DNA of 25,495 bases from a virus, in the IMG/VR virus record IMGVR_UViG_3300020442_001390, positions 1-25,495 of that record, one strand, 5' to 3'. Made by a program: the position numbers and the translations under genes. Positions 1 through 17,262 of the stretch are shown piece by piece. How positions within the stretch are numbered: the first letter of the stretch is position 1; each line of letters opens with the position of its first letter. The notes under the pieces were generated by a model that was not told the DNA's origin, did not search any database, and worked only from the letters and a program-made list of their open reading frames with translations.

Positions 1-222
1 GACTTTTTGATTCCGTCGTGTACAATAGGTATTGAGGTGCATGGTGAACAACACTTTAAGTATGTGCCATACTTTCACAAGTCTAAGGTCGGATTTGCAC
101 AAGCAAAGAAGCGTGATCTAGACAAGAAGGAGTGGTGCAGAATAAATGAGATTACACTTGTGGAGTTACGTTGGGACGAAGACCCAGAGTATTGGAGAGA
201 GAAAATTGAAAGCAGAAGATAG
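1..222 (+). CDS. Vsr/DUF559-like PD-(D/E)XK endonuclease, C-terminal part
   Basis: The reading frame is open from base 1, so the N-terminus lies outside the window. About 73 residues remain. They contain IEVHGEQH followed by a basic stretch with KKRDLDKKEW and then LVELRW. This arrangement (acidic residue, G-x-Q-H, R-D-x-x-K-x-x-W, then a hydrophobic strand) is typical of the small PD-(D/E)XK nucleases related to very-short-patch repair and DUF559 proteins, which in phages include homing-type enzymes. The protein may nick or cut DNA in repair, recombination or gene mobility. The stop overlaps the next gene, so it belongs to the replication operon. Family assignment is from motif memory; the exact role is unknown. 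Confidence 0.6.
   Translation, partial: DFLIPSCTIGIEVHGEQHFKYVPYFHKSKVGFAQAKKRDLDKKEWCRINEITLVELRWDEDPEYWREKIESRR
194..201 (+). promoter_or_regulatory. Ribosome binding site selecting a TTG start at 206
   Basis: GGAGAGAG lies a few bases before TTG at 206. The in-frame ATG at 146 has no comparable site and would overlap the upstream gene by far more, so the TTG start is preferred. Confidence 0.5.
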
Positions 223-670
223 ACTTAAACAGTTTTTAGATGGCATTGACTCCTACATTACTGCAAAAAATGTAGTTCCAACCAAGTTCAATCCAGAGTT
301 TGCAATCGCAGAAACCCTGTCGATGGAGGATCTGGAAAAGCTAACTCAAGATGATTGTTTTAATTACGCATATCAATTATATCAGTTCGCAGATCATGTA
401 GCTAGTGAAAGAGCACATGCAGAAAACGTTATCCGTTGGTGTCATGTAAACTTGCAAAGCATTATATCATCTGAGATTACTGGAGGCGTATGGGATCAAT
501 ATGCTAAACATGATACAAAGGTAGCAACAATCCTGAGAAATGACGAGCTAGCCAGAAGGATTAATGACTGGAAAATGACGGCAGAAGGTAGGCTAGAAAA
601 TATCAAAAATAGAGAATACAATGTCAGGCGTAAAGCCGACATCCTAATTGAAAAAGGTAAAAGAAAATGA
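206..670 (+). CDS. Helical phage protein of unknown function
   Basis: With the TTG start the protein is 154 residues. It is rich in charged and helical segments and has no membrane helix or cysteine cluster. Residues 50-155 read as long amphipathic helices with many E, R and K, ending in a strongly basic tail. The position next to a nuclease, a zinc-ribbon protein and the DnaB helicase suggests a replication or recombination accessory role. A recombination mediator of the UvsY type (137 residues in T4, helical) is one possibility by size and context only; I see no diagnostic motif. An alternative start at ATG 146 would add 20 residues that overlap the upstream gene. Confidence 0.75.
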   Translation: MKAEDRLKQFLDGIDSYITAKNVVPTKFNPEFAIAETLSMEDLEKLTQDDCFNYAYQLYQFADHVASERAHAENVIRWCHVNLQSIISSEITGGVWDQYAKHDTKVATILRNDELARRINDWKMTAEGRLENIKNREYNVRRKADILIEKGKRK

Positions 671-1089
671 GCGACGACTTAGTAAAAAAACTACTAGAGT
701 CACTAACACCTGATCAGAAGGCTAGTTTAGTTGACTCGCTTTTAAATGATAATGTAAAACGGGACGTTCCCGAAGTGAAAGAGGAAACACCTCCCTCTAA
801 TCCTAGTTCTAATGTGAACGAGGACTTTACTGTAACAAGAGGTGACGATTTTCTTGAGAAAAGGAAAACTCCGGTGAGAGCCAGCAAAAATCAGTGGGTT
901 GACAATGGTGAAGATAGAGACCCAGACTTTGACCCCGTTAAGTTTGAACGTATGGGTAAAACTTCTAGAAATAGAGGTAAAGCAAAAAAGAGAACGCTTG
1001 AGTGTCATGTCTGCGGCAAGACTTTTAGTATGAACGCAAACTTAGTACACGGTGAATATATTAGATGCAATCGTTGCACAGGAAGGTAA
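667..1089 (+). CDS. Phage zinc-ribbon protein
   Basis: This 140-residue protein starts in an ATGA overlap with the previous stop. The N-terminal 30 residues form a helix with leucine spacing. Residues 35-60 are a proline/serine/acidic linker. Residues 66-82 contain a basic to aromatic segment ending in NQWVDNG. The C-terminus is a zinc ribbon, C113-x2-C116 and C134-x2-C137. I recall small phage proteins with the same plan of a VRASKNQWVD-like stretch followed by a terminal C2-C2 ribbon near replication genes, but their function is not settled. Nucleic-acid or partner binding is likely. The stop lies one base before the helicase start, and the AGGAAGG at its end is the helicase ribosome binding site. 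Confidence 0.85.
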   Translation: MSDDLVKKLLESLTPDQKASLVDSLLNDNVKRDVPEVKEETPPSNPSSNVNEDFTVTRGDDFLEKRKTPVRASKNQWVDNGEDRDPDFDPVKFERMGKTSRNRGKAKKRTLECHVCGKTFSMNANLVHGEYIRCNRCTGR

Positions 1090-1090
1090 A

Positions 1091-2533
1091 ATGGATTCCC
1101 AGCTTTGCGACACTGGTGCAGAGCGGGCAGTACTTGCAGGACTGTTCGCATATGGACTAGAGTCTTATGTTGAAATAAATGATTTTATTACGCACAGCAG
1201 TTTTGCAAACCGTAATAATCAAGTCATATATAAATGTATTGAAAAGATTTTAGAAGGTGACGCAGTTGTTGACATCCCTGCTATACTTTCTGCGGCAGAG
1301 CAATTAAATCTTTCCGAGACCGTCCAAAGCAAGCAAGAGCTTGATTATATCAAGAACTTGATGGACTATCCTGTAAAGAAGCAAAACGTTTTACACTTTG
1401 CGGCACAAGTAAAAAAGTTTGAGTTCGCACGTAACGCAAAACGTATTGCAAAGAAAATAGATTCTGATATCGACTCTATCGTAGGTGATGAGAGCATTGA
1501 CGATATTATTAATCTAGTTGAGTCTCCTCTCATGGATTTTTTGAGAGACGATGAGACAGGTCAAAAACCAGAGATGTTAGGTGACGACCTAGATGAGTAC
1601 GTAGAGTTTTTAATTGAAAACAAGTGTGATCAAATAGGACTGTCTAGTGGATTTCCCAGATTTGATACCGTCATTGGTGGTGGCTTACGTCGTAAGTGTG
1701 TGGACCTTGTATCCGCAAGGCCCGGAGTGGGCAAGTCTGTCTTTGCAGATAACGTTGCTCTCCATAACGCTCGCTTGGGAATTCCAGTACTTATGCTTGA
1801 TACTGAGATGAGTAAAGAGGATCACCTAAATAGAATTCTATCCAATATTAGCGGTGTGCCTATCGGAGATATTTCTACAGGCAAGTTTGCAGAAGACGAC
1901 GAAAAGTTGATAGCAGTCCGTAATGCTATGGATGAGATTAGGGACATACCCTATACATACGTTAGCGTTGCCGGTGCTCCTTTTGAGACCATCCTAAATA
2001 CAATTAAGAGATGGATTCTGCGTGAAGTGGGGCAGGATGAAAATGGTAAGACTAATGAATGTCTTGTAGTTTACGATTATCTTAAACTTATGTCATCATC
2101 TGGTATCACAAATAATATCCAAGAGTATCAGGCGTTAGGGTTTCAAATTACAAACCTGCACAATCTTGCAGTAAAGTATGATTTCCCTTGTCTGTCATTT
2201 GTACAGCTAAACAGAGATGGTATAACCAAAGAGTCTACGGACGCTGTGAGCGGATCTGACAGGCTTATCTGGCTGTGTACATCATTCTCCATATTTAAAT
2301 TAAAGTCGGCTGAGGAGCTTGCAGAGGACGGTCCAAACGCAGGCAACAGAAAAGTAGTAACGCTAAAAGCGAGACATGGTGCTGGACTTATGGATGGTAA
2401 TTATATTAACATGAATATGGTGGGTGAGCACGCACAGTTGCTTGAACTTAGAACTAGAGATGAGGTCAGGTCTTCTCCAGATGGAGATGTTATTGAAGGA
2501 TCTGACGCACCTTTTGATTTGGAGGAAGAATAA
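1091..2533 (+). CDS. dnaB: Replicative DNA helicase, DnaB family
   Basis: This is a 480-residue hexameric 5'-3' helicase that unwinds DNA at the phage fork and recruits primase. The first ~110 residues match the DnaB N-terminal helical domain, opening with AERAVLAGLF. A linker leads to a RecA-type motor: Walker A ARPGVGKS at 209-216, an acidic motif LDTEMS shortly after, Walker B VVYDYLKL with D329, a FVQLNRDG segment as in DnaB motif 4, and RHGAG near the arginine-finger position. The C-terminus is an acidic tail. I chose ATG 1091 because AGGAAGG precedes it and the upstream gene ends at 1089; a GTG at 1052 would overlap the zinc ribbon. Length is close to bacterial DnaB. A primase gene lies downstream. 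Confidence 0.96.
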   Translation: MDSQLCDTGAERAVLAGLFAYGLESYVEINDFITHSSFANRNNQVIYKCIEKILEGDAVVDIPAILSAAEQLNLSETVQSKQELDYIKNLMDYPVKKQNVLHFAAQVKKFEFARNAKRIAKKIDSDIDSIVGDESIDDIINLVESPLMDFLRDDETGQKPEMLGDDLDEYVEFLIENKCDQIGLSSGFPRFDTVIGGGLRRKCVDLVSARPGVGKSVFADNVALHNARLGIPVLMLDTEMSKEDHLNRILSNISGVPIGDISTGKFAEDDEKLIAVRNAMDEIRDIPYTYVSVAGAPFETILNTIKRWILREVGQDENGKTNECLVVYDYLKLMSSSGITNNIQEYQALGFQITNLHNLAVKYDFPCLSFVQLNRDGITKESTDAVSGSDRLIWLCTSFSIFKLKSAEELAEDGPNAGNRKVVTLKARHGAGLMDGNYINMNMVGEHAQLLELRTRDEVRSSPDGDVIEGSDAPFDLEEE

Positions 2534-2733
2534 TGTCACTTACTGCAAAGGTAATCACCGCAACAGTTGTTGTTCTGGGTCTTGTAGAGCTTATCTCAAT
2601 AACAGTCGGCGGCACACCCACAATTAGCAGATTTATGCAGAACTCTGCGTTTGAAGCACCTTTTATTTCTTTTTCGGTTGGGTTTACGTGCGGTCACATA
2701 TTTGGATATATGCCACAGAGAAAGGCAGAATGA
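2533..2733 (+). CDS. Small membrane protein
   Basis: This 66-residue protein starts one base inside the helicase stop (TAATG), with GGAGGAAG just upstream inside the helicase acidic tail. Residues 5-27 form a clear hydrophobic helix (VITATVVVLGLVELISITV). A second, weaker apolar stretch lies at 42-58. The C-terminus is basic (PQRKAE). It is probably an inner-membrane protein with one or two helices. No family is recognised. It sits between helicase and primase and is translationally coupled to both neighbours. Confidence 0.75.
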   Translation: MSLTAKVITATVVVLGLVELISITVGGTPTISRFMQNSAFEAPFISFSVGFTCGHIFGYMPQRKAE

Positions 2734-2894
2734 TGTTAGCGTCTTGGGCAATAGGTATTTCTACTTTATGTTATGTAGTATGCGGTATAGACAACTTGAG
2801 GCAAAAGGATTTTCCTCATGCTTTAGTGTGGTTTTCTTACGCAGCAGCGAACTCGGGATTTTTATGGTATGAGTTTACGAAAAGCCAAGGGTAA
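2730..2894 (+). CDS. Small two-helix membrane protein
   Basis: The ATG at 2730 overlaps the previous stop as ATGATG, after AGAAAGG. The product is 54 residues with two hydrophobic segments, about residues 2-17 and 28-46, joined by a charged loop (DNLRQKDFPHA). The pattern of a short loop followed by HALVWFSYAAANSGF resembles small holin-sized membrane proteins common in phage genomes; I know of no assigned function. Its end overlaps the primase start by 26 bases. A longer in-frame start at 2688 would run through the upstream gene and is not preferred. Confidence 0.7.
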   Translation: MMLASWAIGISTLCYVVCGIDNLRQKDFPHALVWFSYAAANSGFLWYEFTKSQG

Positions 2895-3894
2895 AACCTT
2901 AGACCTCAACAAGGTTAAGGAAATAATTTTTGACGATATTGATCTACTTTTAGACAGTTTTGGTTTGGAGTATGAGCAAGTAGCGGATAATATATTCATG
3001 AGGTGTCCTATCCACGAGGGTAGCGATAACCCACAGGGTCTTTCTATCTCACTAAGCAGGCAGGCTTGGAGATGCTGGACTAGAGGGTGTCACGAGCATT
3101 ACAATACCGACATCTTTGGTTTTGTAAAAGGTGCGTTACATACTGACTCGTTTTCGGAAGCTCTAAGTTATATATGCAAATTGTATGATGTTGGTAATGC
3201 CAAAACGGAGAAGAAGGTAGAAGAACGTCGTGAGGATGTTTTTGGAGACTTAGTAAAAACGATATCAACAAAGACAGATGTCACAAATATTCAACCCAGT
3301 TTTGAACCTGTAGATACACTGAGTAACTCTCCATACTTTGAAAGCAGAGGCTTTGATAAGAAGACGTTACAATACTTTGGCGTGAAGGATTGTGCTGATA
3401 GATCGTGTCCAATGCGATTCCGTTCTATCATACCTATTAACTTTTGCGGACATCAAGTTGGATATATAGCTCGATCAACTAGAGAATGGCTACAGCCTAA
3501 GTATCTATTCTCTAATGGCATAAAGAAGACAGACTACCTATATAACTATGACAATGCAATTTCAGCACTACAGGAATCCAAATGCCTTTTCTTAGTAGAA
3601 GGACAAGGTGATGTCTGGAAACTGTGGGAGTGTGGTGTCAGGAATGTTGTTGGACTATTTGGCAAAGACATCTCTGGCGAACAGAGAAAGTTGCTGTTAA
3701 AGAGCGGCGTTAGCACGCTGATCGTACTTACTGACAACGATCAAGCGGGCAGAGAATCAAAGATAAAAATTAAAAGGGATTTGAGCAGATTATTTACACT
3801 GATGTTCCCCAAGATGAGTACTAAGGACTTAGGCGATATGTCAACAGAATCTGTACAAGAAAAGATACTTAAAAACCTACAAGGATATTTTTAG
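2869..3894 (+). CDS. dnaG: DNA primase, DnaG type, zinc finger plus TOPRIM
   Basis: This 341-residue primase makes RNA primers for lagging-strand synthesis. A CHC2-type zinc finger is formed by C46, H49, C69 and C74, with the usual RCPIHEG start and WRCW before the third ligand. The catalytic TOPRIM domain carries the glutamate in LVEGQGD (E244) and the acidic pair in LTDNDQAG (D289, D291). It is shorter than bacterial DnaG (about 580 residues) and has no obvious C-terminal helicase-binding domain, as in many phage primases. Its start lies inside the preceding small gene and the ribosome site is weak, which suggests translational coupling. The helicase gene two loci upstream is its likely partner. 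Confidence 0.93.
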   Translation: MSLRKAKGKTLDLNKVKEIIFDDIDLLLDSFGLEYEQVADNIFMRCPIHEGSDNPQGLSISLSRQAWRCWTRGCHEHYNTDIFGFVKGALHTDSFSEALSYICKLYDVGNAKTEKKVEERREDVFGDLVKTISTKTDVTNIQPSFEPVDTLSNSPYFESRGFDKKTLQYFGVKDCADRSCPMRFRSIIPINFCGHQVGYIARSTREWLQPKYLFSNGIKKTDYLYNYDNAISALQESKCLFLVEGQGDVWKLWECGVRNVVGLFGKDISGEQRKLLLKSGVSTLIVLTDNDQAGRESKIKIKRDLSRLFTLMFPKMSTKDLGDMSTESVQEKILKNLQGYF

Positions 3895-4677
3895 ATGATT
3901 ATTGGAATTTCTGGGAGAAAGCAGGCTGGCAAAAACACAACAGCTAACATCCTACACGGCATTGTTCTCAAAAAGCAGGGTCTAATCAAAGACTGGAACA
4001 TTGGTGGTAAAGGAGAACTAAATATTCTGACCGATAACGCTTCTGGCGAGGAGGGCTGGGGAGTATTTGATATTGCTAGAAAAGACGGTGCATTTATAGA
4101 ATATGCAGAGCATAGCATGTGGCCGTATGTAAAACTGTACAGCTTTGCTGATGAGCTTAAACGTATCTGTGTTGAGCTTTTTAATATTCCATACGAGTGT
4201 GTTTACGGTACTGATGAGCAGAAAAATCAACCGCAAGAACATTTGCTCTGGGATAATATGCCCAAAACATTCAGCTCTAAAATGAGAAAAGTATTTACTG
4301 AAGCTCCTGACGCACTTAGGTCGTGGGAGTGGAAGCAGGGGCCAATGACTGCTCGTGAGTTTATGCAGTTCTTTGGTACAGATATTTGCCGTAATGCCTT
4401 CCAGCCCATCTGGGTAAACGCATGTCTAAACAAAATTAAAAGAGAAAAATCACAACTGGCAATTATAGCAGACGTGAGATTTGGTAATGAAGCTAAGGCT
4501 ATTGAGGAAGCTGGTGGTAAACTAGTTAGACTCACTAGAAATATTTACAATGACGATCATTCAAGCGAAGTAGCTCTGGATGACTACCCCTTCACAAATT
4601 ATATTGACAATAGCGATACGAACATAGATGACCTGACGGTGAAGGTAAAGAAGTTTTACAATCACTTAAAGGAATAA
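3895..4677 (+). CDS. Deoxynucleoside monophosphate kinase
   Basis: This 260-residue enzyme is predicted to phosphorylate dNMPs to dNDPs for phage DNA synthesis. The N-terminus is a P-loop, GRKQAGKNT at residues 7-15, directly after strand MIIGIS, as in T4 gp1-type dNMP kinases (241 residues). Residues ~195-220 contain ADVRFGNEAKAIEEAGGKLV followed by LTR, a segment characteristic of this family that places an arginine near the phosphate site. A central YECVYGTDEQKN region and WEWKQGPMTAREF fit the family's substrate-binding lid region. ATG 3895 follows the primase stop directly with no gap. Context among replication genes supports the call. Nucleotide specificity cannot be read from sequence. 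Confidence 0.88.
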   Translation: MIIGISGRKQAGKNTTANILHGIVLKKQGLIKDWNIGGKGELNILTDNASGEEGWGVFDIARKDGAFIEYAEHSMWPYVKLYSFADELKRICVELFNIPYECVYGTDEQKNQPQEHLLWDNMPKTFSSKMRKVFTEAPDALRSWEWKQGPMTAREFMQFFGTDICRNAFQPIWVNACLNKIKREKSQLAIIADVRFGNEAKAIEEAGGKLVRLTRNIYNDDHSSEVALDDYPFTNYIDNSDTNIDDLTVKVKKFYNHLKE

Positions 4678-4678
4678 T

Positions 4679-5716
4679 ATGTTAGTTACATACGTAAGAA
4701 GTTCTAGTTATAATAATTATGCGTATTGCCAAATGCAATACTTTATTACCTATGTATTAGGTCATCAGTCTGATAGCGGCAAGAAAGCCGACATGGGAAC
4801 TATGGCTCACAAGGTGATGGAGATCCTAGCTGGACTGAAGAAGTTTCAGCAGGATAACTCACGCAAAAAGTATCTTGTTGTAGACGACGATGCCGCTGGT
4901 AAAATTAGAATACACAAAGATAGACTATATACAAATGAGTTAGTAGATGAACTTGTAGATATAGCTATAGATTGCTACGCTAAAAACTCCAAGCACAAAT
5001 TCTTCCCTGCTGATAGAAAAGCTGTATCTGAAACTGTCTGGACTTTTCTTACGCATAGCGATGGACAGTTTGACCCCAGACTTAGGAATATCCATCATCC
5101 AGAGCCGCACTTTGACATCCCTATCGAAGAAGATTGGGCTAAGTTTGAGTATGAAATAAACGGCGAAAAGGTAGAGGGGCAGCTTGCAATCAAGGGTACA
5201 ATCGACCTTGTGACGCTACTCAACGACGATACCATCGAGGTAATCGACTGGAAGACTGGTCGCCGCATGGATTGGGCTACTGGAGAAGTCAAAGACTACA
5301 AGAAACTAGAAAATGACGCACAATTACTTCTTTATTTCTACGCTATATCTAAATTATATCCTGAATATCCTAATAGAATTATGAGTATATTTTTCTATAA
5401 AGATAAAGATGGCGAGCCAGATCCCAAGCCTTTTTCCCTAATGTTTGACAAGAGCGACGAAGCTAGATTTCTAGAGATGTTAAAGGGTAGAGTGGAAGAA
5501 ATCAGACAAAATGTCAACCCTAGACCATTAGATTCCACGAGAAAGCACTGGAAATGCAGATATCTGTGTCATTATTGCAAGAATAATTGGCCGGGAACAG
5601 AGGAAAATATGTGTATATATATAGAGAAGCACCTAAAGGAACACGGTATGGAGGAAACAGTTAAAAAATGCACACGTCCGGGCTTTAACATAGGCTTTTA
5701 TGAAGCTCCGGGCTAA
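4679..5716 (+). CDS. Cas4/RecB-like PD-(D/E)XK exonuclease with probable Fe-S cluster
   Basis: This 345-residue nuclease probably degrades or resects DNA in phage recombination or host DNA turnover. An N-terminal helix carries C17 in YCQMQYF. H44 lies in MGTMAHKVME, matching the RecB-type motif I histidine. The nuclease core has D176 in IKGTIDLV and then E187-VI-D190-W-K192-TG, the standard D...(D/E)xK site. Near the C-terminus are C293, C297, C300 and C312. One early cysteine plus a C-terminal cluster is the layout of the iron-sulfur staple in Cas4 and AddB proteins. No cas gene or CRISPR array is nearby, so a phage recombination role is more likely than adaptation. It starts two bases after the kinase gene. 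Confidence 0.88.
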   Translation: MLVTYVRSSSYNNYAYCQMQYFITYVLGHQSDSGKKADMGTMAHKVMEILAGLKKFQQDNSRKKYLVVDDDAAGKIRIHKDRLYTNELVDELVDIAIDCYAKNSKHKFFPADRKAVSETVWTFLTHSDGQFDPRLRNIHHPEPHFDIPIEEDWAKFEYEINGEKVEGQLAIKGTIDLVTLLNDDTIEVIDWKTGRRMDWATGEVKDYKKLENDAQLLLYFYAISKLYPEYPNRIMSIFFYKDKDGEPDPKPFSLMFDKSDEARFLEMLKGRVEEIRQNVNPRPLDSTRKHWKCRYLCHYCKNNWPGTEENMCIYIEKHLKEHGMEETVKKCTRPGFNIGFYEAPG

Positions 5717-5729
5717 TCGGAGAATAGCA

Positions 5730-5894
5730 ATGAAAGAGTTTATGTTAGGGTTTTTTGTGGCATCATCGTTAATGTTAGCTGCTTACATCGTCTGGGAGAA
5801 CAAAAGGCACGTTCCAGTCGTCATACAACAAGTTCCAGTGCCTGTGCAACAGATGGCAAAGCCACCTATAGATATAGAAAGATGGGAAACATAA
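5730..5894 (+). CDS. Small single-pass membrane protein with proline/valine tail
   Basis: The chosen ATG at 5730 follows CGGAGAA and gives 54 residues; an in-frame ATG at 5700 lies inside the nuclease gene. Residues 4-22 are a hydrophobic helix (FMLGFFVASSLMLAAYIVW) preceded by one lysine and followed by ENKRH. Positive charge after the helix would keep that side cytoplasmic by the positive-inside rule, although the short tail could also be periplasmic. The tail VPVVIQQVPVPVQQM is low-complexity and proline-rich. The stop overlaps the DUF1501 start, so the two are coupled. A spanin-like or anchor role is conceivable but not supported by any motif. Confidence 0.7.
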   Translation: MKEFMLGFFVASSLMLAAYIVWENKRHVPVVIQQVPVPVQQMAKPPIDIERWET

Positions 5895-7123
5895 TGAGAA
5901 GAAGAGATTTTCTGAGACTTGGAGCTGCCACTTTTGCAGTAGGAAATGTGGAAGCTAGTTATGCACAAGCTGCGGACGCAGACAAGACTGCCGTACTTTT
6001 TGTGTTTCTGAATGGTGGAGCGTCACATATTGAGACTTTCAATCCTATTCCCCTAGCTCCCGCCGATAGACGATCTGTAAGCGGTGCTATCAAAACCAAT
6101 GTAGAAGGCATCCAACTTGGTGGATATTTTAAAGAATTAGCAAAACGCACAGATAAGATAACAATTCCAAGAGCTTTTGGTCATAGAGATCAAAACCACG
6201 CCAGTTCTGTACATTGGGTAGTGACTGGCGAGGCAAACTTTGGTGCAGGCACCAGCTCAAAATGGCCTAGTCACGGTAGCATGATGAGTAGATATCATGG
6301 ACCAAATACAGAAGACGGGTTGCCTCATTACGTGAAGATTGGCGGATTCCAACACGATGACGCTGCGTGGCTAGGTGGTAAGTATATGGGGTTTGACGCA
6401 ACTAAAGAAGGTCGCAAAGACCTGCAACTGTTAGGCTCAAGCGAAGCATTTAGAAAAAGGCTTTTTGCTCTAAGCGTTATTGATCGCGGATTTGCCGCTA
6501 AAGATCAACAACTAGCTAAAGATTGGTCAGCATTACGAGAACAATCAGTTGACATTATTCTAGGTAATGCCTCTAAGTCATTTAGGGTTGAAGAAGATAA
6601 AGACTACGACTCTTTTAAAGACCATTCTTTTGGTTCCGATGCTCTCACAGCAATAAGGCTCTTGGAAGCAGGCTCAAGATACGTAACTTTGACTATTGGT
6701 GGTTGGGATATGCACAGCAACATTAATACCAGTCTTTCCAATACGCAGGTTGTGTTAGATACTTACCTTGCTAAAATTATGGATACGCTAGAAGCTAGAG
6801 GTATGTACGAACGAGTTATGCTGATTGTCACATCTGAATTTGGTAGAACACCAAAAGTAAACGGCAACGCAGGTAGAGATCATTTTGGGAAAATTGCCCC
6901 GCTAATGATTAGCTGCGGAAGCTATGAAATGGGACGAACTGTAGGCACCACCACTGCAAATGCTGACGATTTTGACCAAGGCAGAACAACTCCAGAAGAT
7001 TTATCATGGACTATTTTTGATCATCTTAAGATGGAAAAGAAAACACGCTACACTGCTACAGACGGTCGTCCACACTACATTGTTAAAGAAGACTCCAAGA
7101 ACATTCTTACGGATATAGCCTAA
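5894..7123 (+). CDS. DUF1501 family protein with twin-arginine signal peptide
   Basis: This 409-residue protein belongs to DUF1501, which sits in the alkaline-phosphatase/sulfatase-like superfamily and is very abundant in planctomycetes. Residues 2-10, RRRDFLRLG, are a textbook Tat motif. A short weakly hydrophobic stretch and an A-x-A-like site (ASYAQA, about 21-26) follow, so the product should be exported folded by the host Tat system. Family landmarks include LNGGASHIETF at 40-49, HRDQNHASSVHW from 97, GGWDMH with D272/H274, SEFGRTPK with E315 and GRDHFGK with D329/H330. It lacks the usual D-x-F-D after GG-x-S-H, having E-T-F-N. Substrate is unknown. ATG 5882 is an alternative start. It overlaps both neighbours by one base. 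Confidence 0.9.
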   Translation: MRRRDFLRLGAATFAVGNVEASYAQAADADKTAVLFVFLNGGASHIETFNPIPLAPADRRSVSGAIKTNVEGIQLGGYFKELAKRTDKITIPRAFGHRDQNHASSVHWVVTGEANFGAGTSSKWPSHGSMMSRYHGPNTEDGLPHYVKIGGFQHDDAAWLGGKYMGFDATKEGRKDLQLLGSSEAFRKRLFALSVIDRGFAAKDQQLAKDWSALREQSVDIILGNASKSFRVEEDKDYDSFKDHSFGSDALTAIRLLEAGSRYVTLTIGGWDMHSNINTSLSNTQVVLDTYLAKIMDTLEARGMYERVMLIVTSEFGRTPKVNGNAGRDHFGKIAPLMISCGSYEMGRTVGTTTANADDFDQGRTTPEDLSWTIFDHLKMEKKTRYTATDGRPHYIVKEDSKNILTDIA

Positions 7124-7788
7124 TGAACTATATAGTTGGTGCAGATAAAGTTGTTAAAGAACAGCTAAGAAGTATTAAGTATACAGATAATCCTAAGACA
7201 TGGGACGTATCTGACAAAATTACTATTGCTTGGGACGATATTCTTCCAGACCCTCCTTCTAACGATAGCGATGTCACAAAAAAGGAGTTAGTATATTTAT
7301 CTGAACTAACTAGGAATAGATCTAATTCACAGGTTGAGCTGATTAAGTTGGTTGATAAAGAACCAAATGACCTATATCACAAAACATTGAAAAGGCTAAA
7401 CCTAGAGTTCCCACAAGACATCTTTGATAAATCTTGGAACATATTAAAAAACATAATTAAAAACTTAAAACATCAACACAATAGACCAAGACCATACCAG
7501 ATATCTGATAAGTATGGGATTGCAATAAATTTGCTTGATTCAAAAACAGCACAAACCCCTGCGTATCCCTCTGGTCATACAGCTTACGCAGCTTTAGGTG
7601 CTTACATATTAGCCGCAAAATATCCGGCACACTCAGAACACTTCTTTGACAAAGTGTCTACTGCTGGTATGGCTAGAATGTTAATGGGCGTACACTATCC
7701 TTCTGACAACGAAGCATCTATGATTATTACTGGTGCTGTGTGGGAAGACATTCGATACAAACTGTTTCCAGAACTACCAAACTTTTAG
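7123..7788 (+). CDS. PAP2-family phosphatase / vanadium haloperoxidase-like protein
   Basis: This 221-residue protein carries all three motifs of the PAP2 acid phosphatase and vanadium haloperoxidase superfamily with exact spacing. They are K116-x6-R123-P124, then P149-S-G-H152, then R185-x5-H191-x3-D195 (alanine replaces the usual serine before R185). In this fold a histidine forms the phospho- or vanadate-linked centre, so it is probably a phosphomonoesterase or pyrophosphatase. There is no signal peptide and no clear multi-helix membrane core, so it looks soluble, like class A acid phosphatases or haloperoxidases rather than lipid phosphatases. It starts on the DUF1501 stop (TAATG), which implies co-translation with that exported protein. 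The substrate cannot be deduced. Confidence 0.88.
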   Translation: MNYIVGADKVVKEQLRSIKYTDNPKTWDVSDKITIAWDDILPDPPSNDSDVTKKELVYLSELTRNRSNSQVELIKLVDKEPNDLYHKTLKRLNLEFPQDIFDKSWNILKNIIKNLKHQHNRPRPYQISDKYGIAINLLDSKTAQTPAYPSGHTAYAALGAYILAAKYPAHSEHFFDKVSTAGMARMLMGVHYPSDNEASMIITGAVWEDIRYKLFPELPNF

Positions 7789-7797
7789 GAGATAAAA

Positions 7798-8901
7798 ATG
7801 CCACTGCCATCAAGAAAAGACGGCGAAGACCGAAAAGAGTTTATGAGTCGCTGTATGAGCGACCCCAAGGTTAGAGAAGAATACAAAGACAATAGTCAAC
7901 GAGTAGCTGTATGCATCTCTAAAGCCACTGAGGGTTTAGACCATATTCAGGCAGCAGACATGAAAATGTACTTTGAGTCTTATGGATCTGAAGAAGAACT
8001 AACTGCTGACAACTATCATGTACCTTCAGAAGAAGACTATGTCTCTGCTGACGAAGTTTACTACGAAGAGTCTGAAGTAGAGGAGCTGGACTTATCTGTA
8101 GCTAAACCCGGACTCTGGGAAAACATCAGACGCAAGAAAGAGCGTGAAGGTAAAAACTATAAACCTGCTAAAACTGAAAAGGAAGGCAGACCAACTCAAG
8201 AGCAGCTCAAGCGTGCTCAGTCCGAAGAGTATCTTACGTATGCCGAGTTTGCAGAGGCTGACAAGCCGGGACCAAAAGATCCTCGCAGAACTCCTGCACC
8301 TAAAAAAGATCAGAAAAAAGGTTCTAAAAAGAACAAGCCAGATAGTGCAAAGGATGGTAAGGGTAAAATTACCTTCAGTAAAGAAGTGACCGCACAACTG
8401 TCTGCAAAAGTCAAAGAGCACAACGCTAAAGGCAAAGGCTCTAAAGCAACTCTGGGTATGCTCAAGGCTGTTTATCGTCGTGGAGCTGGAGCGTTTTCTA
8501 CAAGCCATGCACCAAAGATGAGTCGTCACGGATGGGCTATCGCTAGAGTCAACGCATTTCTTAAACTACTAAGAAGCGGAAGACCTTCTAATCCTAATTA
8601 CACAACCGACAACGACTTGCTGCCCAAAGGTCATCCACGAGCTGGCAAATCAAAGGCCGCTGAATATCAAGGACGCAAGGTTCAGTTGGGTAAACCTTTT
8701 AGAACCCCAAAAGGGCCAAAGAAATTTAGCGTTTATGTTAAAAATCCAAAGGGAAATGTTGTTAAGGTGAACTTTGGTGATCCTAACATGAAGATTAAAA
8801 AGAATATCCCCGGCAGAAGAAAGAATTTCCGTGCTCGCCACAACTGCGACAATCCCGGACCACGCCACAAGGCACGTTACTGGAGTTGCAGAGCGTGGTA
8901 G
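7798..8901 (+). CDS. Composite lysine-rich phage protein, DUF5824-like, probably virion-associated
   Basis: This 367-residue protein follows AGGAGA and appears to be built of modules. Residues 1-45 have the MPLP...EFMSRCMSDP...QRVAVCIS pattern (C19, C39) seen at the start of many phage head-region proteins. Residues 50-115 are very acidic (many E, D, Y). Residues 115-190 are lysine/proline-rich and probably disordered. Residues about 190-280 match a phage module I recall as DUF5824, with KATLGMLKAVYRRGAGAFS and NDLLPKGHPRAG. Residues 300-367 are a basic C-terminal module with NVVKVNFGDPNM and the ending RARHNCDNPGPRHKARYWSC then RAW. The C-terminal module is frequent in phage structural or prohead proteins as far as I recall. 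Role is inferred only; a packaged basic scaffold or DNA-binding virion protein is plausible. Confidence 0.8.
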   Translation: MPLPSRKDGEDRKEFMSRCMSDPKVREEYKDNSQRVAVCISKATEGLDHIQAADMKMYFESYGSEEELTADNYHVPSEEDYVSADEVYYEESEVEELDLSVAKPGLWENIRRKKEREGKNYKPAKTEKEGRPTQEQLKRAQSEEYLTYAEFAEADKPGPKDPRRTPAPKKDQKKGSKKNKPDSAKDGKGKITFSKEVTAQLSAKVKEHNAKGKGSKATLGMLKAVYRRGAGAFSTSHAPKMSRHGWAIARVNAFLKLLRSGRPSNPNYTTDNDLLPKGHPRAGKSKAAEYQGRKVQLGKPFRTPKGPKKFSVYVKNPKGNVVKVNFGDPNMKIKKNIPGRRKNFRARHNCDNPGPRHKARYWSCRAW

Positions 8902-9204: not shown

Positions 9205-10833
9205 ATGGACTGGTTCCCTCTTTGTAACCTTACACATTATTCTCTGCAAAAAGGTTTCTCTAAACCAAAACAGCTCGCAGAGAAGTGCCGCACTAATAAT
9301 TTCAAAGCGTGCGGTATCGCAGACTACAAAAGTATTTCTGGAGCTGTATCTTTTTATAAGGCATGTGTCGCACAAGACATCAAGCCAATCATCGGCTGCT
9401 CTTTCGACAACTTCACGCTCTTTGCCAAGAATAAAGATGGATGGTTTGAGTTAATTCAAATCGTATCTTCTCTCTCAGACGATGGCGAACCTGATACAAA
9501 ACTTATATTATCGCTATCTAAAAATAATAATCTGATCTGTGTAGCGGAAGACGAGTCAGTATCTCCTGTGCGTGGAGAGGATTTCTACGAGAAAACTGCA
9601 TCGTTCCATACTAGCTACTATACAGAAAAAGAGCACGCAGAGCTACACCGAATCATGCTATGCTCTAGTATGAAAACTACTTTGTCTAAAGTAAATAAGG
9701 CTATTACAAATGGTCAAACTGTGGACAATCAAGTTTTCTTTGAGTCAAATGATTTCTTCTTGCGTGACAAGTTATCTGCAACGGAGCTATTGATTGACGG
9801 CAAAGACCCAGAAAGTTTTGTAGACATCTTCAGTAAGTGCAAGAACTATAATATCCTCAGTCAACCTATGCTGCCTACGTTCGATACCCCTAACGGTCAG
9901 ACCGAAAAGGATTATCTTAGAGAACTGGCTAGAGCAGGATGGAAGAAGATGCTTGATGACAAGATTACTGATGAAGATGAAAGAAAGGTCTATGGAGATA
10001 GATTTAGAAAAGAGTATGATGTTATCGAGAAGGCTAATCTATTTGGTTACTTCCTAATTGTGTGGGATATTCTAAACCATTGTAGAGATCAAGGATGGAT
10101 GGTAGGGCCGGGACGAGGGTCTGCCGCAGGATGTCTAATTTCTTATCTTATAGGTATTACGCAGATTGACCCCATCGAGTTTGATTTACTATTTGAGCGA
10201 TTTTACAACGAGGGTCGTAACACAGAGGATCACATCTCCCTTCCTGATATTGACATGGATGTGCCGGGAGACAAGCGTGACGAGATTATCGCACACCTAA
10301 AGTATAAGTATGGGTCAGATAATGTTAGTCAGATGCTGACGTTTGGTAGACTGCAAGGCAGGAGTGCTATTAAAGAAGTCCTCCGAGTAAATAACGCTTG
10401 CGGATTTGGAGAGATGAATGAAATTACGAAATATATTCCTGACGAAGCAGCTATTTCTGACCAACTAGCAGAAATGGATGAAGAAGATCGGTCAATCATC
10501 AAGTGGGCGTTGCTGAATAACGCTGACGACCTACGTGATTACTGTTATGTAAACGAGGATGGGGAGCTAAAAGGCGACTTCTCCGAGTTCTTCAAGCAGG
10601 CTATAGATATAGAGGGTACGTTTAAGACACAGGGAAAACATGCTGCTGGAGTTGTTATCTCCGCAGAACCACTTTTTAAAGTATGTCCCATGGTGAACCA
10701 AAGGAGTGGCGGTGAAAAAATCGCTGGATTGGAAATGGCAGACCTAGAAGCTCTGGGCCATGTCAAGTTCGATGTCCTTGGTATCAACTTGCTGGACAAA
10801 CTTATGAAAATCAAGGAGCTTATTAATGAATAG
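9205..10833 (+). CDS. dnaE: DNA polymerase III alpha subunit, N-terminal half (PHP and palm)
   Basis: This 542-residue protein is the front half of a bacterial-type replicative polymerase. Residues 1-100 are a PHP domain in which the metal-binding H-x-H is C7-N-L9 and the TDH triad is A39-D-Y41, so it is probably inactive. The palm holds VGPGRGSAAG (300-309), PDIDMD (347-352, catalytic aspartates) and KFDVLG with D523, the third catalytic aspartate. The protein stops 20 residues later, before the fingers domain, which is encoded at 11512-13077. Start ATG 9205 follows GAAGGA. The end overlaps the exonuclease gene by eight bases. Without the second half it should not polymerise. Confidence 0.94.
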   Translation: MDWFPLCNLTHYSLQKGFSKPKQLAEKCRTNNFKACGIADYKSISGAVSFYKACVAQDIKPIIGCSFDNFTLFAKNKDGWFELIQIVSSLSDDGEPDTKLILSLSKNNNLICVAEDESVSPVRGEDFYEKTASFHTSYYTEKEHAELHRIMLCSSMKTTLSKVNKAITNGQTVDNQVFFESNDFFLRDKLSATELLIDGKDPESFVDIFSKCKNYNILSQPMLPTFDTPNGQTEKDYLRELARAGWKKMLDDKITDEDERKVYGDRFRKEYDVIEKANLFGYFLIVWDILNHCRDQGWMVGPGRGSAAGCLISYLIGITQIDPIEFDLLFERFYNEGRNTEDHISLPDIDMDVPGDKRDEIIAHLKYKYGSDNVSQMLTFGRLQGRSAIKEVLRVNNACGFGEMNEITKYIPDEAAISDQLAEMDEEDRSIIKWALLNNADDLRDYCYVNEDGELKGDFSEFFKQAIDIEGTFKTQGKHAAGVVISAEPLFKVCPMVNQRSGGEKIAGLEMADLEALGHVKFDVLGINLLDKLMKIKELINE

Positions 10834-11500
10834 AGATATTATCGTATTTGACTTTGAAACAGGCGGTAGGAATCCGATGAGGTGTCAACCTACACAGATT
10901 GCTGCTATTGCGTTAGACGGTAGGAACTTTAGGCTAAAAGGAGAGTTCAATAGTCTTATGCGTCCTATCATTGACGACGAGAAAGCAATCGCTGCTGGTG
11001 TTGATCCACTAGAAGAAGGTGCCTTGAAAGTTACTGGACAGACCAGAGCAAAACTTGCTAAAGCACCTTTACCCAAAGGTGTATGGAAGAAGTTCTGCAA
11101 CTTTGTCAATAAATATAATTGGAAAGGTACGTCATACTTTGCACCTATTCCTGCCGGTTTTAATATCCTCGGCTATGATATGCATATCGTAAATAGATTA
11201 TGCAAAGAGTATGGACCATATGACGACAAGAGGCAGTGCCAAAAGCTATTTCACCAAATCTACAAGATTGACGTAATGGATGATGTTTGGCTATGGACTG
11301 AAGGAGACCCAGATGTTAAGTCTATTAGTATGGACAGCCTGCGAGAAAGAATGGGTTTGTCTAGCGAGAACGCTCACGACGCTTTGCAAGACGTTAAGGA
11401 CACAGCAAATATCTTTATCAAACTGCAAAAGTCAAGACGAGCAGTCTACAGAAACATGAAATTTGAAAAGGCATTTGCTGACGGAAAACTTTTTGTTTAG
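10826..11500 (+). CDS. dnaQ: DEDDh 3'-5' exonuclease, DnaQ/epsilon-like
   Basis: This 224-residue exonuclease probably proofreads for the split polymerase that flanks it. Exo I is FDFETGG with D9 and E11. Exo II is AGFNILGYDMHIV with D118. Exo III is H184-D-A-L-Q-D189-V, giving the DEDDh set. A segment PVTGQTR-like (LKVTGQTRAKL) between Exo I and II resembles the epsilon-family 'h..hhG.t...l' element. AAGGAG (10813-10818) inside the end of the upstream gene drives ATG 10826, and ATGAATAG provides an eight-base overlap. The stop is 11 bases before the next start. It has no homing-endonuclease or intein motif. No clamp-binding motif was identified by eye. Confidence 0.9.
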   Translation: MNRDIIVFDFETGGRNPMRCQPTQIAAIALDGRNFRLKGEFNSLMRPIIDDEKAIAAGVDPLEEGALKVTGQTRAKLAKAPLPKGVWKKFCNFVNKYNWKGTSYFAPIPAGFNILGYDMHIVNRLCKEYGPYDDKRQCQKLFHQIYKIDVMDDVWLWTEGDPDVKSISMDSLRERMGLSSENAHDALQDVKDTANIFIKLQKSRRAVYRNMKFEKAFADGKLFV

Positions 11501-11511
11501 AATTGAGAAAT

Positions 11512-13077
11512 ATGATTGACACTAAAGATGAGAAGTCTTGGAACTTATATAGAGACGGTTTGACCAAAGGCGTATTTCAGCTAGAAAGTAATTTAGGAAG
11601 AGCGTGGTCAAAGAGATTAGCACCAGAAAACCTAGAAGAGTTAGCTGCACTGATTGCACTAATTCGTCCGGGATGTTTGAAAGCTGTTATTGATGGTAAG
11701 TCAATGACGCAAAGATTTGTTGACAGGAAGCATAAGAAAGAAGATGTTACCTATCTGCATGAATCGTTAGAAAGCATACTCCAGCCTACGTATGGAGTAC
11801 TTGTGTACCAAGAGCAAGCTATGCTTATTGCTGTGAAACTCGCTGGCTTCAGCGAGATGGAAGCTGACAACTTGCGTAAAGCAATCGGTAAGAAGAAGGC
11901 TGACCTCATGGCTCAAATCCGTGGTGAGTTCGTAGAGGGGTGTGCTAGAGAAGGTATCGTCAATGAAGAAACCGCCAAAGAGATTTTTGGTTGGATTGAG
12001 AAGTCTTCTAGATACTCTTTTAACAAGTCTCATGCGGTTGCGTATGCTTTAAACTCTTACTGGTCTGCATACTACAAGGCTAACAACACCAAAGAGTTCT
12101 TCTTGTCGTACCTATACTACGCAAATGAAAAGCAAGACCCGCACCAAGAAATCTATGAGCTAGTAAACGAAGCTAAACTATTTAATATTGAAGTAAAGGT
12201 TCCTAAACTAAGTGCCTTTTCAACTAAGTTCTCTATTAAGTCAGATAGTATCTGCTTTGGTGTTAAGGATATTAAAAGCCTAACAGGTGTCACGGGCGAC
12301 AAAGTAATCGCAGCTATTTCGGAAACGTCGGAAGAAATAGATAAGTCCCCACAAGATTTTACTTGGATGGATATTCTAATTTACCTAGCCCCCAAGATCA
12401 ACTCTACCGCTTTTAAGGCTCTTGCGTCTATAGGTTTCTTTTCCACAAAAGCTAGTGGTGTCACAAGAAACCAAGCATTGTACGAGTACCTAATATTTAG
12501 AGAGTTGACCAAGGCGGAAGTCAAGTGGGTTACATCTCACTACCAAAGTAGAAAATGGACGAAGCTGCAAGACTGTTTTAGAGAACTATGTCCCACCAAA
12601 AAGAATGGTGGAGGGTGTAGTAATATAAACAGAAGTCAGATTATCGAGAATGAAATTGAGATGCTAAAAAATCCACCTTACGACCTGTCCGACGATCCCG
12701 CTTGGATTATCGAGCAAGAAACTAAGATGTTGGGTTGCCCAGTTTCTCTTTCTAAAATTGACGCTGTGGACACATCTATTGCCAACACCACCTGCAAAGA
12801 CATTATGGATGGCAAGAAGGGTAAAGATATCTGTATCGTTGCGAACCTACAAAGAGTAGCTAATCACAAGATTAACAAGCAAGGAAGCTCACAAAAGGGT
12901 AGAACTATGTCATTTCTTACAATCGAAGATGCGACATGCTCCCTTGACAGCGTTATCGTTTTCCCAGACGCTAGAGATAAATATCAGTTTATCCTGTATG
13001 AAGGCAACAACGTAATGCTCTGCGGTGAAGTCGGCAAAGACGGATCATTTATTGTTGACAAAATTCACGAAATTTAA
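11512..13077 (+). CDS. dnaE: DNA polymerase III alpha subunit, C-terminal half (fingers to OB fold)
   Basis: This 521-residue protein continues the polymerase. It opens with DTKDEKSWNLYRDGLTKGVF then QLES, which matches the stretch just after the palm in intact DnaE. It then has ALIALIRPG, the YQEQAM motif near residue 99, DNLRKAIGKKK and FNKSHAVAYA near 170, all fingers-domain hallmarks. A helix-hairpin-helix/beta-binding region follows and an OB fold occupies roughly residues 440-520. The tau-binding C-terminus of E. coli DnaE seems absent. Both halves total about 1,063 residues against 1,160 in E. coli. ATG 11512 has a weak GAGAAA upstream; TTG 11503 is the alternative. No intein residues are present at either break. 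Confidence 0.93.
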   Translation: MIDTKDEKSWNLYRDGLTKGVFQLESNLGRAWSKRLAPENLEELAALIALIRPGCLKAVIDGKSMTQRFVDRKHKKEDVTYLHESLESILQPTYGVLVYQEQAMLIAVKLAGFSEMEADNLRKAIGKKKADLMAQIRGEFVEGCAREGIVNEETAKEIFGWIEKSSRYSFNKSHAVAYALNSYWSAYYKANNTKEFFLSYLYYANEKQDPHQEIYELVNEAKLFNIEVKVPKLSAFSTKFSIKSDSICFGVKDIKSLTGVTGDKVIAAISETSEEIDKSPQDFTWMDILIYLAPKINSTAFKALASIGFFSTKASGVTRNQALYEYLIFRELTKAEVKWVTSHYQSRKWTKLQDCFRELCPTKKNGGGCSNINRSQIIENEIEMLKNPPYDLSDDPAWIIEQETKMLGCPVSLSKIDAVDTSIANTTCKDIMDGKKGKDICIVANLQRVANHKINKQGSSQKGRTMSFLTIEDATCSLDSVIVFPDARDKYQFILYEGNNVMLCGEVGKDGSFIVDKIHEI

Positions 13078-13129: not shown

Positions 13130-13447
13130 ATGAATAATTGCACGTTTACGGGATACCTATATGATGATCCCGAGATTGACATAGATGAAGATAGCGGCTC
13201 GGAATATTGCGAGTTTACCCTGACCGTCTACGAATACGTCAGAAACAAAAGGGGCGAAAAGAAGAGATACCCCACCTTCCTTAGACTTAGAGCTTGGGAC
13301 AGCGGAGGGAGAACGATTGCCAAACTAGGAAAGTCTGGCATGAAGATGACAGTTACCGCTTCAGCAAAAAACATGCAGCCTGAAGAGGATACGCTGATTA
13401 CGTTTAGAGTAAACCAATTCGACTTTGGATGTTTGGACAAGGATTAA
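13130..13447 (+). CDS. ssb: Single-stranded DNA-binding protein, OB fold
   Basis: This 105-residue protein reads as a compact bacterial-type SSB that coats single-stranded DNA at the fork. It opens with NNCTFTGYLYDDPE, matching the family start (strand, G-x-L, D-P-E), continues with CEFTLTVYE and RGEKKRYPTFLRLRAWDSGG, the core OB strands with the F-x-R-x-x-A-W pattern, and then AKLGKSGMKMTVTASA. It lacks the glycine-rich linker and the acidic DDDIPF-type tip that recruit partners in cellular SSB, although the last residues are acidic. AAGGAA precedes ATG 13130. It has its own promoter and is followed within one base by the first glycosyltransferase gene. Confidence 0.85.
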   Translation: MNNCTFTGYLYDDPEIDIDEDSGSEYCEFTLTVYEYVRNKRGEKKRYPTFLRLRAWDSGGRTIAKLGKSGMKMTVTASAKNMQPEEDTLITFRVNQFDFGCLDKD

Positions 13448-13448
13448 A

Positions 13449-15125
13449 ATGAGAAAGAAAAGAATTCTATTTTGTAGTGAAGCTACTTTTCTAAATACAG
13501 GATACGCAACTTACACTAGGGAAATCTTAAATTATTTACACAGTACAGGTAAATATGAAATTGCAGAGATGTCTGCCTACGGTCAGAGGAATGATCCTAG
13601 AGCTAAAGACATTCCTTGGGGTTACTTTGGCATCGCACCTAATACAGACTGTGAGCCAAAGGCTACTCAAGAAGAGTTAGATGCGTACCACTCGTCCGGC
13701 TCTAACCAGTTTGGAGAATGGATTTTTGAGCATGTATGCTTGGAATTTATGCCAGATATTGTATGCGACATCCGAGACTTCTGGATGCTAGAATTTGCAG
13801 AGCGTTCTCCATTCAGAAACTACTTCAAGTGGTGTATCATGCCCACCGTAGACGCTAGACCACAAGCTAGACAGTGGGTTGCTTCATACGCTAACGCAGA
13901 CGCCTGCTTGACATATTCTGACTGGGCAGGAACAGTGCTCGCAGATCAATCTGGTGGGCAAATTAACTATCTCGGCAGTGCTCCTCCATCTGCCCATCCA
14001 GCATATCATCCCGTAGAAGATAAGAAAGCACACAGGAAAAAATTTGGCTTAGATCCAGATAGCATGATTATTGGTACGGTCATGAGAAATCAGAGACGAA
14101 AACTGTACCCTGACCTGTTTGAGGCTTTCCGAGAGTTTCTGGATAAGTCAGAAAATAAAAACGTATACTTGTACTGCCACACTTCCTATCCAGACCTTGG
14201 TTGGGATATACCAGAGTTGTTGCAGCAGCACAATCTATCTTCACACGTACTATTTACTTACATTTGTCCAGAGACGAAGAAGCCCTTCCCGTCACTATTT
14301 AAAGGTGCTGTTATTCAATCGCCGTTTACCGGCAAGTGGGGATCAACACTTTCTAATGTAAAGAATGGTGTTTCTTATGAAGACCTATCTTCTATCGTTA
14401 ATCTGTTCGATCTTTATACTCAGTATGCAAACTGCGAAGGATTCGGCCTGCCGTATGTAGAAGCTGCTGCCTGTGGCGTGCCTGTCTGCGGAACTGACTA
14501 TTCTGCTATGGAAAGTGAGATTCGCAAGCTAGAAGGGTATCCGATTCAACCTGCCGCACTGTATAAAGAACTAGAGACTGGGTGTTTACGTGCAGTACCA
14601 GACAACCACAAGGCTGCTCAGTATTTCCTAGACTTTTTTGCTATGTCTGAAGAAGAACGTGCAGAGCTTGGCAAACGCACGAGAGAAAACTTTGAGAAGC
14701 ATTTCCAGTGGCATATGAGCGGCAAGAAGTGGGAGGATTATTTCGACAGCGTGGAACTTCCAGACATTACGCAAACGTGGTGCTCTCCTCCTAATATTTC
14801 TCAGCCAGCACCTAAACCAGATTTGCCACCGAACGCAAACGCCCTAGACCTGTCCAGATTTCTCATTACAGAAGTGCTGAGAGATCCATCCAGACTAAAT
14901 ACTTATTTTGAGTCTAGGCTGACTAGAGACTTGACATATAGAAGTGCGACATCCTCTACTGGCGGCATGTATTTCAATGAGTCTTCCGCTGCATTTGACG
15001 GAATAAACACAAGATCTAGCTTTGATTTCAATATTGCGTATGATAATATGACACATCAAAGAAATAGAATTAACCAGTGGGAACAAAAGAGAGTTGAAAT
15101 TATGCAACAAAGGGGGCTAATGTAA
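13449..15125 (+). CDS. GT-B glycosyltransferase (GT4-like) with degenerate zinc-ribbon insert and extra C-terminal domain
   Basis: This 558-residue protein probably transfers a sugar from a nucleotide donor. The GT-B C-terminal donor site is clear: CEGFGLPYVEAAACGVPV, with the E330-x7-E338 pair. The N-terminus opens with a Rossmann-like ILFCSEATFLNTGYATY segment. Between the two domains, residues 273-296 look like a zinc ribbon that has lost ligands: C273-x2-T276 and S291-x2-T294 followed by G-K. After residue ~455 there is a proline-rich linker and a ~90-residue C-terminal extension with DLSRFLITEVLRD and a basic end, absent from ordinary GT4 enzymes. ATG 13449 is one base after the ssb stop; an upstream TTG at 13425 would overlap ssb. 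Acceptor unknown. Confidence 0.86.
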   Translation: MRKKRILFCSEATFLNTGYATYTREILNYLHSTGKYEIAEMSAYGQRNDPRAKDIPWGYFGIAPNTDCEPKATQEELDAYHSSGSNQFGEWIFEHVCLEFMPDIVCDIRDFWMLEFAERSPFRNYFKWCIMPTVDARPQARQWVASYANADACLTYSDWAGTVLADQSGGQINYLGSAPPSAHPAYHPVEDKKAHRKKFGLDPDSMIIGTVMRNQRRKLYPDLFEAFREFLDKSENKNVYLYCHTSYPDLGWDIPELLQQHNLSSHVLFTYICPETKKPFPSLFKGAVIQSPFTGKWGSTLSNVKNGVSYEDLSSIVNLFDLYTQYANCEGFGLPYVEAAACGVPVCGTDYSAMESEIRKLEGYPIQPAALYKELETGCLRAVPDNHKAAQYFLDFFAMSEEERAELGKRTRENFEKHFQWHMSGKKWEDYFDSVELPDITQTWCSPPNISQPAPKPDLPPNANALDLSRFLITEVLRDPSRLNTYFESRLTRDLTYRSATSSTGGMYFNESSAAFDGINTRSSFDFNIAYDNMTHQRNRINQWEQKRVEIMQQRGLM

Positions 15126-15126
15126 T

Positions 15127-17260: not shown

Positions 17261-17262
17261 AT

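Follow-up and report, generated by a model that had tools for sequence, protein, structure and literature searches.

The window analysed here, the whole 25,495 bases of an IMG/VR virus record, carries a block of phage genes in which an open reading frame at 5894-7123 on the plus strand encodes a DUF1501 protein of 409 amino acids (N-terminus MRRRDFLRLGAATFAVGNVEASYAQA, beginning MRRRDFLRLG). In a Pfam scan the protein matched the DUF1501 profile PF07394 with 184.2 bits (E 5.8e-54; cut-off 27 bits). The match was nearly full length, covering residues 32-404 of the protein and positions 2-386 of the 390 in the profile, and the DUF1501 identity proposed in the first-pass annotation thus holds. 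The genes around it are likewise on the plus strand. Upstream lie a replication block of DnaB helicase, primase and dNMP kinase (1052-4677; Pfam and PHROGs), a PD-(D/E)XK exonuclease (4679-5716; Pfam and PHROGs) and a small protein of cluster 72 (5730-5894) that has a single hydrophobic segment; its ORF is listed from 5700, while its relatives start at the equivalent of 5730. Downstream are a PAP2 phosphatase (cluster 22, 7123-7788; Pfam), a DUF5824 protein (7798-8901; Pfam) and two DNA polymerase ORFs that flank an exonuclease subunit (9205-13077; PHROG). The PD-(D/E)XK exonuclease, PAP2 and DUF5824 genes belong to the phage backbone; a strong hydrophobic segment was found in none of the 31 members of the PAP2 cluster. 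Both polymerase ORFs match one PHROG, and this gene order is found again in related records. Also encoded are an SSB-like protein and a block of glycosyltransferase genes. The stretch 13425-25494 holds about a dozen genes, among them several glycosyltransferases, a methyltransferase and a nucleotide-sugar epimerase, and many genes of this block had no relatives in the first set of loci.

The DUF1501 gene overlaps both of its neighbours by one base. The stop codon TAA of the upstream ORF (5892-5894) ends on the first base of ATG 5894, and the last base of the DUF1501 stop, 7123, is the A of the next ATG, so that the one-base overlaps noted earlier within the phage gene block were confirmed on the sequence. 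An alternative ATG lies in frame at 5882; relatives of the window protein (viral family A of the five families described below) begin M-x-RR. Comparison with five relatives gave dN/dS values of 0.04-0.06, a weak estimate because dS was saturated, and a sixth relative gave no dS. Two further pairs gave about 0.03 and no dS, respectively. These values roughly suggest that the gene is under purifying selection. The order exonuclease - DUF1501-A - PAP2 is repeated in records L002, L003, L007, L010 and L014. The same junctions recur in independent records, which for practical purposes rules out a chimeric contig, one of the two conditions named in the first-pass annotation as refuting it. A PHROGs search gave no match for the window protein or for families B, C and D, and none of the NCBIfam models matched any of five DUF1501 proteins submitted.

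The twin-arginine motif seen in the first pass is present in the window protein as RRRDFLRL at residues 2-9 (5897-5920, plus strand; alignment and motif count). It is followed by an uncharged stretch of 11 residues and then by ASYAQA. The RR pair is invariant among 27 aligned DUF1501 sequences, and RRx[FLMIY] occurs within the first 110 residues of 198/198 distinct full-length DUF1501 proteins, a set drawn from viral records with one member from the genome contig L058. In the other ORFs of the same loci the pattern was found in 223 of 2472 within the first 110 residues and in 82 of 2472 within 35. An uncharged run of at least 11 residues is likewise present in all 198 proteins. An AxA-like cleavage site was seen in 139/198 overall and in just 2 of the 15 family D proteins; cleavage is therefore less sure than the RR motif. 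A crude hydrophobicity rule for signal- or anchor-like N-termini flagged 10 of 237 DUF1501 N-termini. Weakly hydrophobic Tat signals would explain this low count, which gives export no support.

A structural model of the protein was built with AF2 from 27 sequences (pLDDT 80.5, pTM 0.83; residues 1-29 and 322-328 below 50). Foldseek searches with this model listed sulfatases, LtaS, LtaP and YejM. VIA-align gave Z 20.2-20.4 and rmsd 3.1-3.5 over 247-252 residues to phosphodiesterases of the NPP kind and to choline sulfatase. The assignment of the predicted DUF1501-A fold to the alkaline-phosphatase superfamily is firm, and the hydrolase-type fold suggested earlier for this protein is borne out by the prediction at a Z of about 20. 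The subgroup within the superfamily is not firm because VIA-align rows within 1 Z are tied, with choline sulfatase and NPP rows both at 20.2. A sequence search of the PDB with the window protein returned zero matches, and a search with the DUF1501 profile returned four weak sulfatase rows (best E 0.051).

Nine residues are kept in 198/198 proteins: E/D47, H102, D272, H274, E/D315, R318, T319, D329 and H330. In the window (codons on the plus strand) these are the acidic, metal-site-like E47 (6032-6034), which is E or D throughout; H102 (6197-6199); D272-M-H274 in the GGWDMH motif (6707-6715), of which the D and H are invariant; E315-F-G-R318-T319 (6836-6850), which aligned to the TSDHG stretch of a sulfatase in the weak profile match at E 0.051; and D329-H330 in the GRDH motif (6878-6883). 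H45, N50 and P320 vary within family A. The conserved D/E/H set is metal-site-like and may form a two-metal site. Residue 126 is S in most DUF1501 proteins, A in 13/15 of family D and G in 5/86 of family A; the chemistry may therefore differ. Identity as a formylglycine sulfatase was ruled out, since the motif [CS]xPxR is present in 0/198 DUF1501 proteins.

The exonuclease marks a fixed slot. For comparison, 24 exonuclease loci were taken that extend 3 kb or more downstream and lack DUF1501 over the stretch examined. Behind the exonuclease a DUF5824-type gene was found in 24/24 and PAP2 in 21/24, and both were rejected as DUF1501 partners, being kept where DUF1501 is missing. In 21 of the 24 the slot holds a glycosyltransferase-like gene of ~285 aa; five of these 21 loci look like near-copies (L335-L338 and L371), and L337 and L371 carry DUF1501 elsewhere on the record. 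This gene order marks DUF1501 as exchangeable cargo of the fixed slot behind the exonuclease. Other DUF1501 arrays lie between ribonucleotide reductase (RNR) and PhoH, and many are among genes of replication and nucleotide metabolism.

Genes close to DUF1501 (within 500 nt of it or between paralogues) were compared with genes over 4 kb away by the same crude hydrophobicity rule. Signal- or anchor-like N-termini were counted in 164 of 494 near genes and 74 of 1203 far genes, or, counted by gene family, in 37/110 and 35/253. At least one of six signal- or anchor-like families lies within 1.5 kb of DUF1501 in 78 of 155 records. By eye, the neighbours include Pro/His/Tyr-rich, Cys-rich EF-hand-like and thioredoxin-like proteins. 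Cluster 77 (L198 4489-4965 and relatives) is a small protein inside DUF1501 arrays. It combines a Cys-rich part and an EF-hand-like stretch, and starts with an NRR and a hydrophobic run of its own. Cluster 79 (L017 11649-12056 and relatives), found near DUF1501-A, is thioredoxin-like, with WCGPC and a signal-like N-terminus. Cluster 66 (L185 677-1699 and relatives; ~340 aa) stands between RNR and DUF1501 in several arrays and had no family match. Inspected by eye, it may be a tail-tube-like virion protein; the setting among replication genes would then be less clear-cut. Other genes of these loci are a phage gene of the IMP dehydrogenase/GMP reductase type (cluster 17, L039 5492-6568) in 38 of the clustered loci, an Fe-S biosynthesis protein (cluster 58, L161 4790-5125; PF01521) that adjoins DUF1501 in some records, and a protein of ~625 aa (cluster 68, L232 7260-9134) directly before or after DUF1501-B in several records, with one member giving a sub-threshold VWA match and no other family match.

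The first-pass annotation had called for a search for the same gene in other phages. At the protein level, a scan of viral contigs turned up 56 loci with 42-88% identity to the window DUF1501. Profile scans were taken as the best 80 of 211 stretches for family A and the best 80 of 169 for family B. Altogether relatives were found in 158 distinct viral records, window included; these were gathered by DUF1501 itself from the best 80 loci per scan and therefore say nothing on prevalence. Eight loci were left out, three because they are genome contigs and five because they show a contig already represented, and L036 and L056 were counted on a tblastn match, though they have no ORF in the DUF1501 cluster. 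In GenBank phages, tblastn with families A and B found zero relatives. The copy number is one in 103 records, two in 21, three in 24 and four in 10, all lower bounds, as parts of records rather than whole ones were examined. Among the 55 records with at least two copies, 19 have the order A-C-B, 10 A-C-D-B and 11 A-B. Single linkage at 45% divides the 198 proteins into five families with 86 members in A, 66 in B, 29 in C, 15 in D and 2 in E. The window protein is in A, and B proteins are 24-27% identical to it.

In samples drawn by other markers, which are biased towards relatives of the window and record G004, DUF1501 was present at 26 of 58 exonuclease loci that extend 1.5 kb or more downstream (from the best 80 loci) and in 11 of 25 long records (10/20 picked by exonuclease and 1/5 by terminase). 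The remaining 14 of these long records, including 4 of the 5 picked by terminase, were without DUF1501. A set of 24 long records picked for DUF1501 carry 1-4 copies each. Full-length terminase was found in 12 of them, and in G004 a prohead protease lies one gene from it. In the other 12, G018 included, there was no terminase match or there were short weak ones, which are read as PhoH-like P-loop proteins because PhoH itself matches the profile weakly; with such matches counted in, one search tallied 22/24. For the terminase of one record, the best GenBank phage matches reach only 25-27% identity.

Bacterial homologues were sought in a sample of 199 Planctomycetota and 194 Verrucomicrobiota genomes. 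In Planctomycetota, viral C found proteins up to 67-69% identical (33/199 genomes at E 1e-110), viral B up to 64-66% (59/199 at 1e-75), viral D up to 61-63% (14/199 at 1e-90) and viral A 31-35% (7/199 at 1e-50). Viral C reached 61% identity in Verrucomicrobiota (6/194 genomes). Among the matches listed for family A against genome contigs, the first was 76% identical (L058), followed by two planctomycete MAG contigs at 36% (L059 and L060) and by others at 28-34%, mostly of Planctomycetota and Verrucomicrobiota. L058 (JABXKB010000239.1) is a 7.4 kb contig titled Lokiarchaeota in which the 76% identical DUF1501-A has phage neighbours, and is probably a misbinned phage contig. The L059/L060 pair looks bacterial from its gene content, with genes for an aldo/keto reductase and a gamma-glutamyltranspeptidase near DUF1501 in L059. 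Since A is at most 36% identical to the clearly bacterial proteins listed, it may have left the host function.

A gene tree, proposed in the first pass as a way to find the donor clade, was built by a quick method with SH-aLRT values only and no bootstrap (103 rows, 31 viral). In this tree viral A forms one clade (99) beside the L059/L060 planctomycete pair (100), C groups with a Pirellulaceae protein (99), B and D fall among planctomycete rows at two or more points, and E is on a long branch whose position was not placed. A recent acquisition of A was ruled out, A being a deep single clade. Viral A-D are tied to Planctomycetota, and transfer would have been from host to virus. The bacterial origin, together with the accessory distribution, points to DUF1501 as an auxiliary, host-derived phage gene. 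Judged from the likely donors alone, the host would belong to Planctomycetota (Pirellulaceae-like). Across eight Planctomycetota and Verrucomicrobiota genomes the number of DUF1501 genes per genome ran from 22 to at least 87, the scoring having stopped at 87 candidates.

The bacterial loci indicate the partners of these proteins. In Stieleria sedimenti and three other genomes of its phylum, host C homologues are found two genes ahead of a PSCyt2/PSD1-type gene at 3/3 loci, host B homologues directly after one in 4/4 loci (L300 judged by position), and host D homologues before one in 1/2 loci. Two of these PSCyt2/PSD1-type genes were confirmed by Pfam and the others by similarity to those. Among viral records, DUF1501-E is beside or two genes from a PSCyt/PSD1-type gene in L232, L235 and G438. 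L232 and L235 encode a PSCyt1-PSCyt2-PSD1 protein of 794-795 aa (all three domains by Pfam), and in G438 a PSD1 protein overlaps DUF1501-E by 11 bases, in a record whose exonuclease is 75% identical to that of the window. A search of 40 viral records other than the window found a PSD1 gene in 3 and no match in the remaining 37; DUF1501 therefore mostly comes without PSD1. PSD1 was also absent among the ten Pfam-scanned window proteins spanning 146-8901. A cut-off relative was seen in L239, outside the 40. According to PMC5615132, genes for PSCyt2 and PSCyt3 usually adjoin two unknown families, nothing is known of PSCyt functions, and the products are predicted to be periplasmic or cytoplasmic; its main text does not name DUF1501. 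PMC2754498 gives 41 PSD1 and 41 PSC2 domains for Rhodopirellula baltica.

From DUF1501 membership, the twin-arginine motif, the predicted fold, the metal-site-like residues, the cargo slot, the planctomycete relatives and the cassettes, as provided by sequence or prediction, we infer an export, an activity, a substrate and a host. In the explanation that we favour, with confidence somewhat short of even, the gene encodes a metallohydrolase of the alkaline-phosphatase superfamily, derived from the host and exported by Tat, that redirects the planctomycete PSCyt/PSD1/DUF1501 system during infection. The phage would infect a member of Planctomycetota (Pirellulaceae-like) and make DUF1501 together with its replication genes. 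The protein would fold in the cytoplasm with its metal bound and then cross by the host Tat pathway. In the periplasm the phage DUF1501 would supplement or replace units of the host PSCyt/PSD1/DUF1501 system. Host genomes carry dozens of DUF1501 genes, so up to four phage classes could redirect periplasmic chemistry towards phage production, with sugar, phosphate or sulfate freed from polymers or envelope. The genes would then form an auxiliary set directed at the periplasm. A wider form of this explanation, which we put forward more tentatively, is that planctomycete phages of one lineage have a modular, Tat-sent cassette and take over the PSCyt/PSD1/DUF1501 machinery with folded metalloenzymes. 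The cassette would consist of A-C-(D)-B, small exported proteins and sometimes PSCyt-PSD1 cytochrome proteins.

The exported protein could instead trim or otherwise alter a glycan or lipid on the planctomycete surface and thereby block adsorption of further phages or prepare lysis. The predicted fold is common to the envelope enzymes LtaS and YejM, small proteins with signal- or anchor-like N-termini are nearby, a glycosyltransferase-like gene fills the slot in 21/24 loci without DUF1501, and a glycosyltransferase block lies further downstream in the window. However, many arrays sit among replication and nucleotide genes, and the host homologues near PSCyt/PSD1 point to catabolism or redox rather than to envelope synthesis, so that such remodelling appears unlikely. 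We consider it quite unlikely that DUF1501 serves in nutrient scavenging, acting in the periplasm as an NPP/AP-type phosphodiesterase or phosphatase and releasing phosphate or nucleosides that feed the synthesis of phage DNA. NPPs are among the top VIA-align rows (Z 20.2), and PhoH, ribonucleotide reductase, dNMP kinase and PAP2 are nearby. However, choline sulfatase stands at the same Z among tied rows, four divergent paralogues are more than plain phosphate release requires, and PAP2 is a backbone gene found without DUF1501 too.

A DUF1501 protein that is not exported but acts in the cytoplasm or the virion, its twin-arginine stretch being an inheritance, would agree with the short uncharged stretch of 11 residues in the window protein; this is improbable in view of the RR motif in 198/198 proteins of five families, despite B being 24-27% identical to the window protein, and of the signal-like N-termini among the neighbours. 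An assembly chimera or bacterial contamination, at which the bacterial relatives and the 12/24 long records without a detected full-length terminase could hint, is highly improbable given the identical junctions in independent records, the full-length terminase in the other 12 and the prohead protease near that of G004.

DUF1501 is thus a known protein family in a new setting, with a viral spread broader than first thought. The first-pass annotation had called it rarely discussed in phages. This stands for the literature searched, where ten papers mention DUF1501, two of them along with phage, and where nothing on DUF1501 in phages was found beyond one weak annotation, a match on a 61-aa protein in PMC5418858. 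Among the viruses themselves DUF1501 is a multi-paralogue family across 158 environmental records. Literature that combines 'phage' with 'infecting Planctomycetes' was looked for and none came up, and DUF1501-bearing records may point to planctomycete phages. DUF1501, PSCyt and PSD1 are highly multiplied, unexplained genes of planctomycetes and related bacteria, DUF1501 being among the largest such families. Phages with one to four arranged DUF1501 genes offer a pruned set in which substrate, export and partners could be tested singly.

The closest known proteins are the bacterial DUF1501 proteins (PF07394) of Planctomycetota and Verrucomicrobiota, which share with the viral ones the GGWD.H, EFGRTP and GRDH stretches, a near full-length profile match and the RR motif, seen in 70 of 72 bacterial tree rows, many of them trimmed to start before the motif. 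Unlike these, family A is a viral clade with at most 36% identity to the clearly bacterial proteins listed, and the phage genomes carry up to four classes in tandem. The likeness to PSCyt1/PSCyt2/PSD1 units (PF07635, PF07583, PF07587) lies in the three phage records with PSD1 near DUF1501-E, whereas the ten scanned window proteins and 37/40 records are without PSD1. S1 formylglycine sulfatases share the predicted superfamily fold and a weak profile match around SDHG, but DUF1501 proteins lack [CS]xPxR in 198/198 and have EFG in the metal stretch where the aligned sulfatase has DHG. NPP-type phosphodiesterases are among the best structural rows (Z about 20), with 10-15% identity in the NPP rows listed. 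A protein of an uncultured Caudovirales phage, A0A6J5M742 (BFVD), is already annotated as 'DUF1501 domain-containing protein'; it is 11% identical to the window protein in structural alignment, and no study of it was found in the literature searched. Phage auxiliary metabolic genes with products that act in the periplasm exist, for example phage-borne phosphatases. DUF1501 resembles them as host-derived accessory cargo in a phage lineage, and differs from them in its multi-paralogue cassette, its conserved twin-arginine motifs and its planctomycete-type partners.
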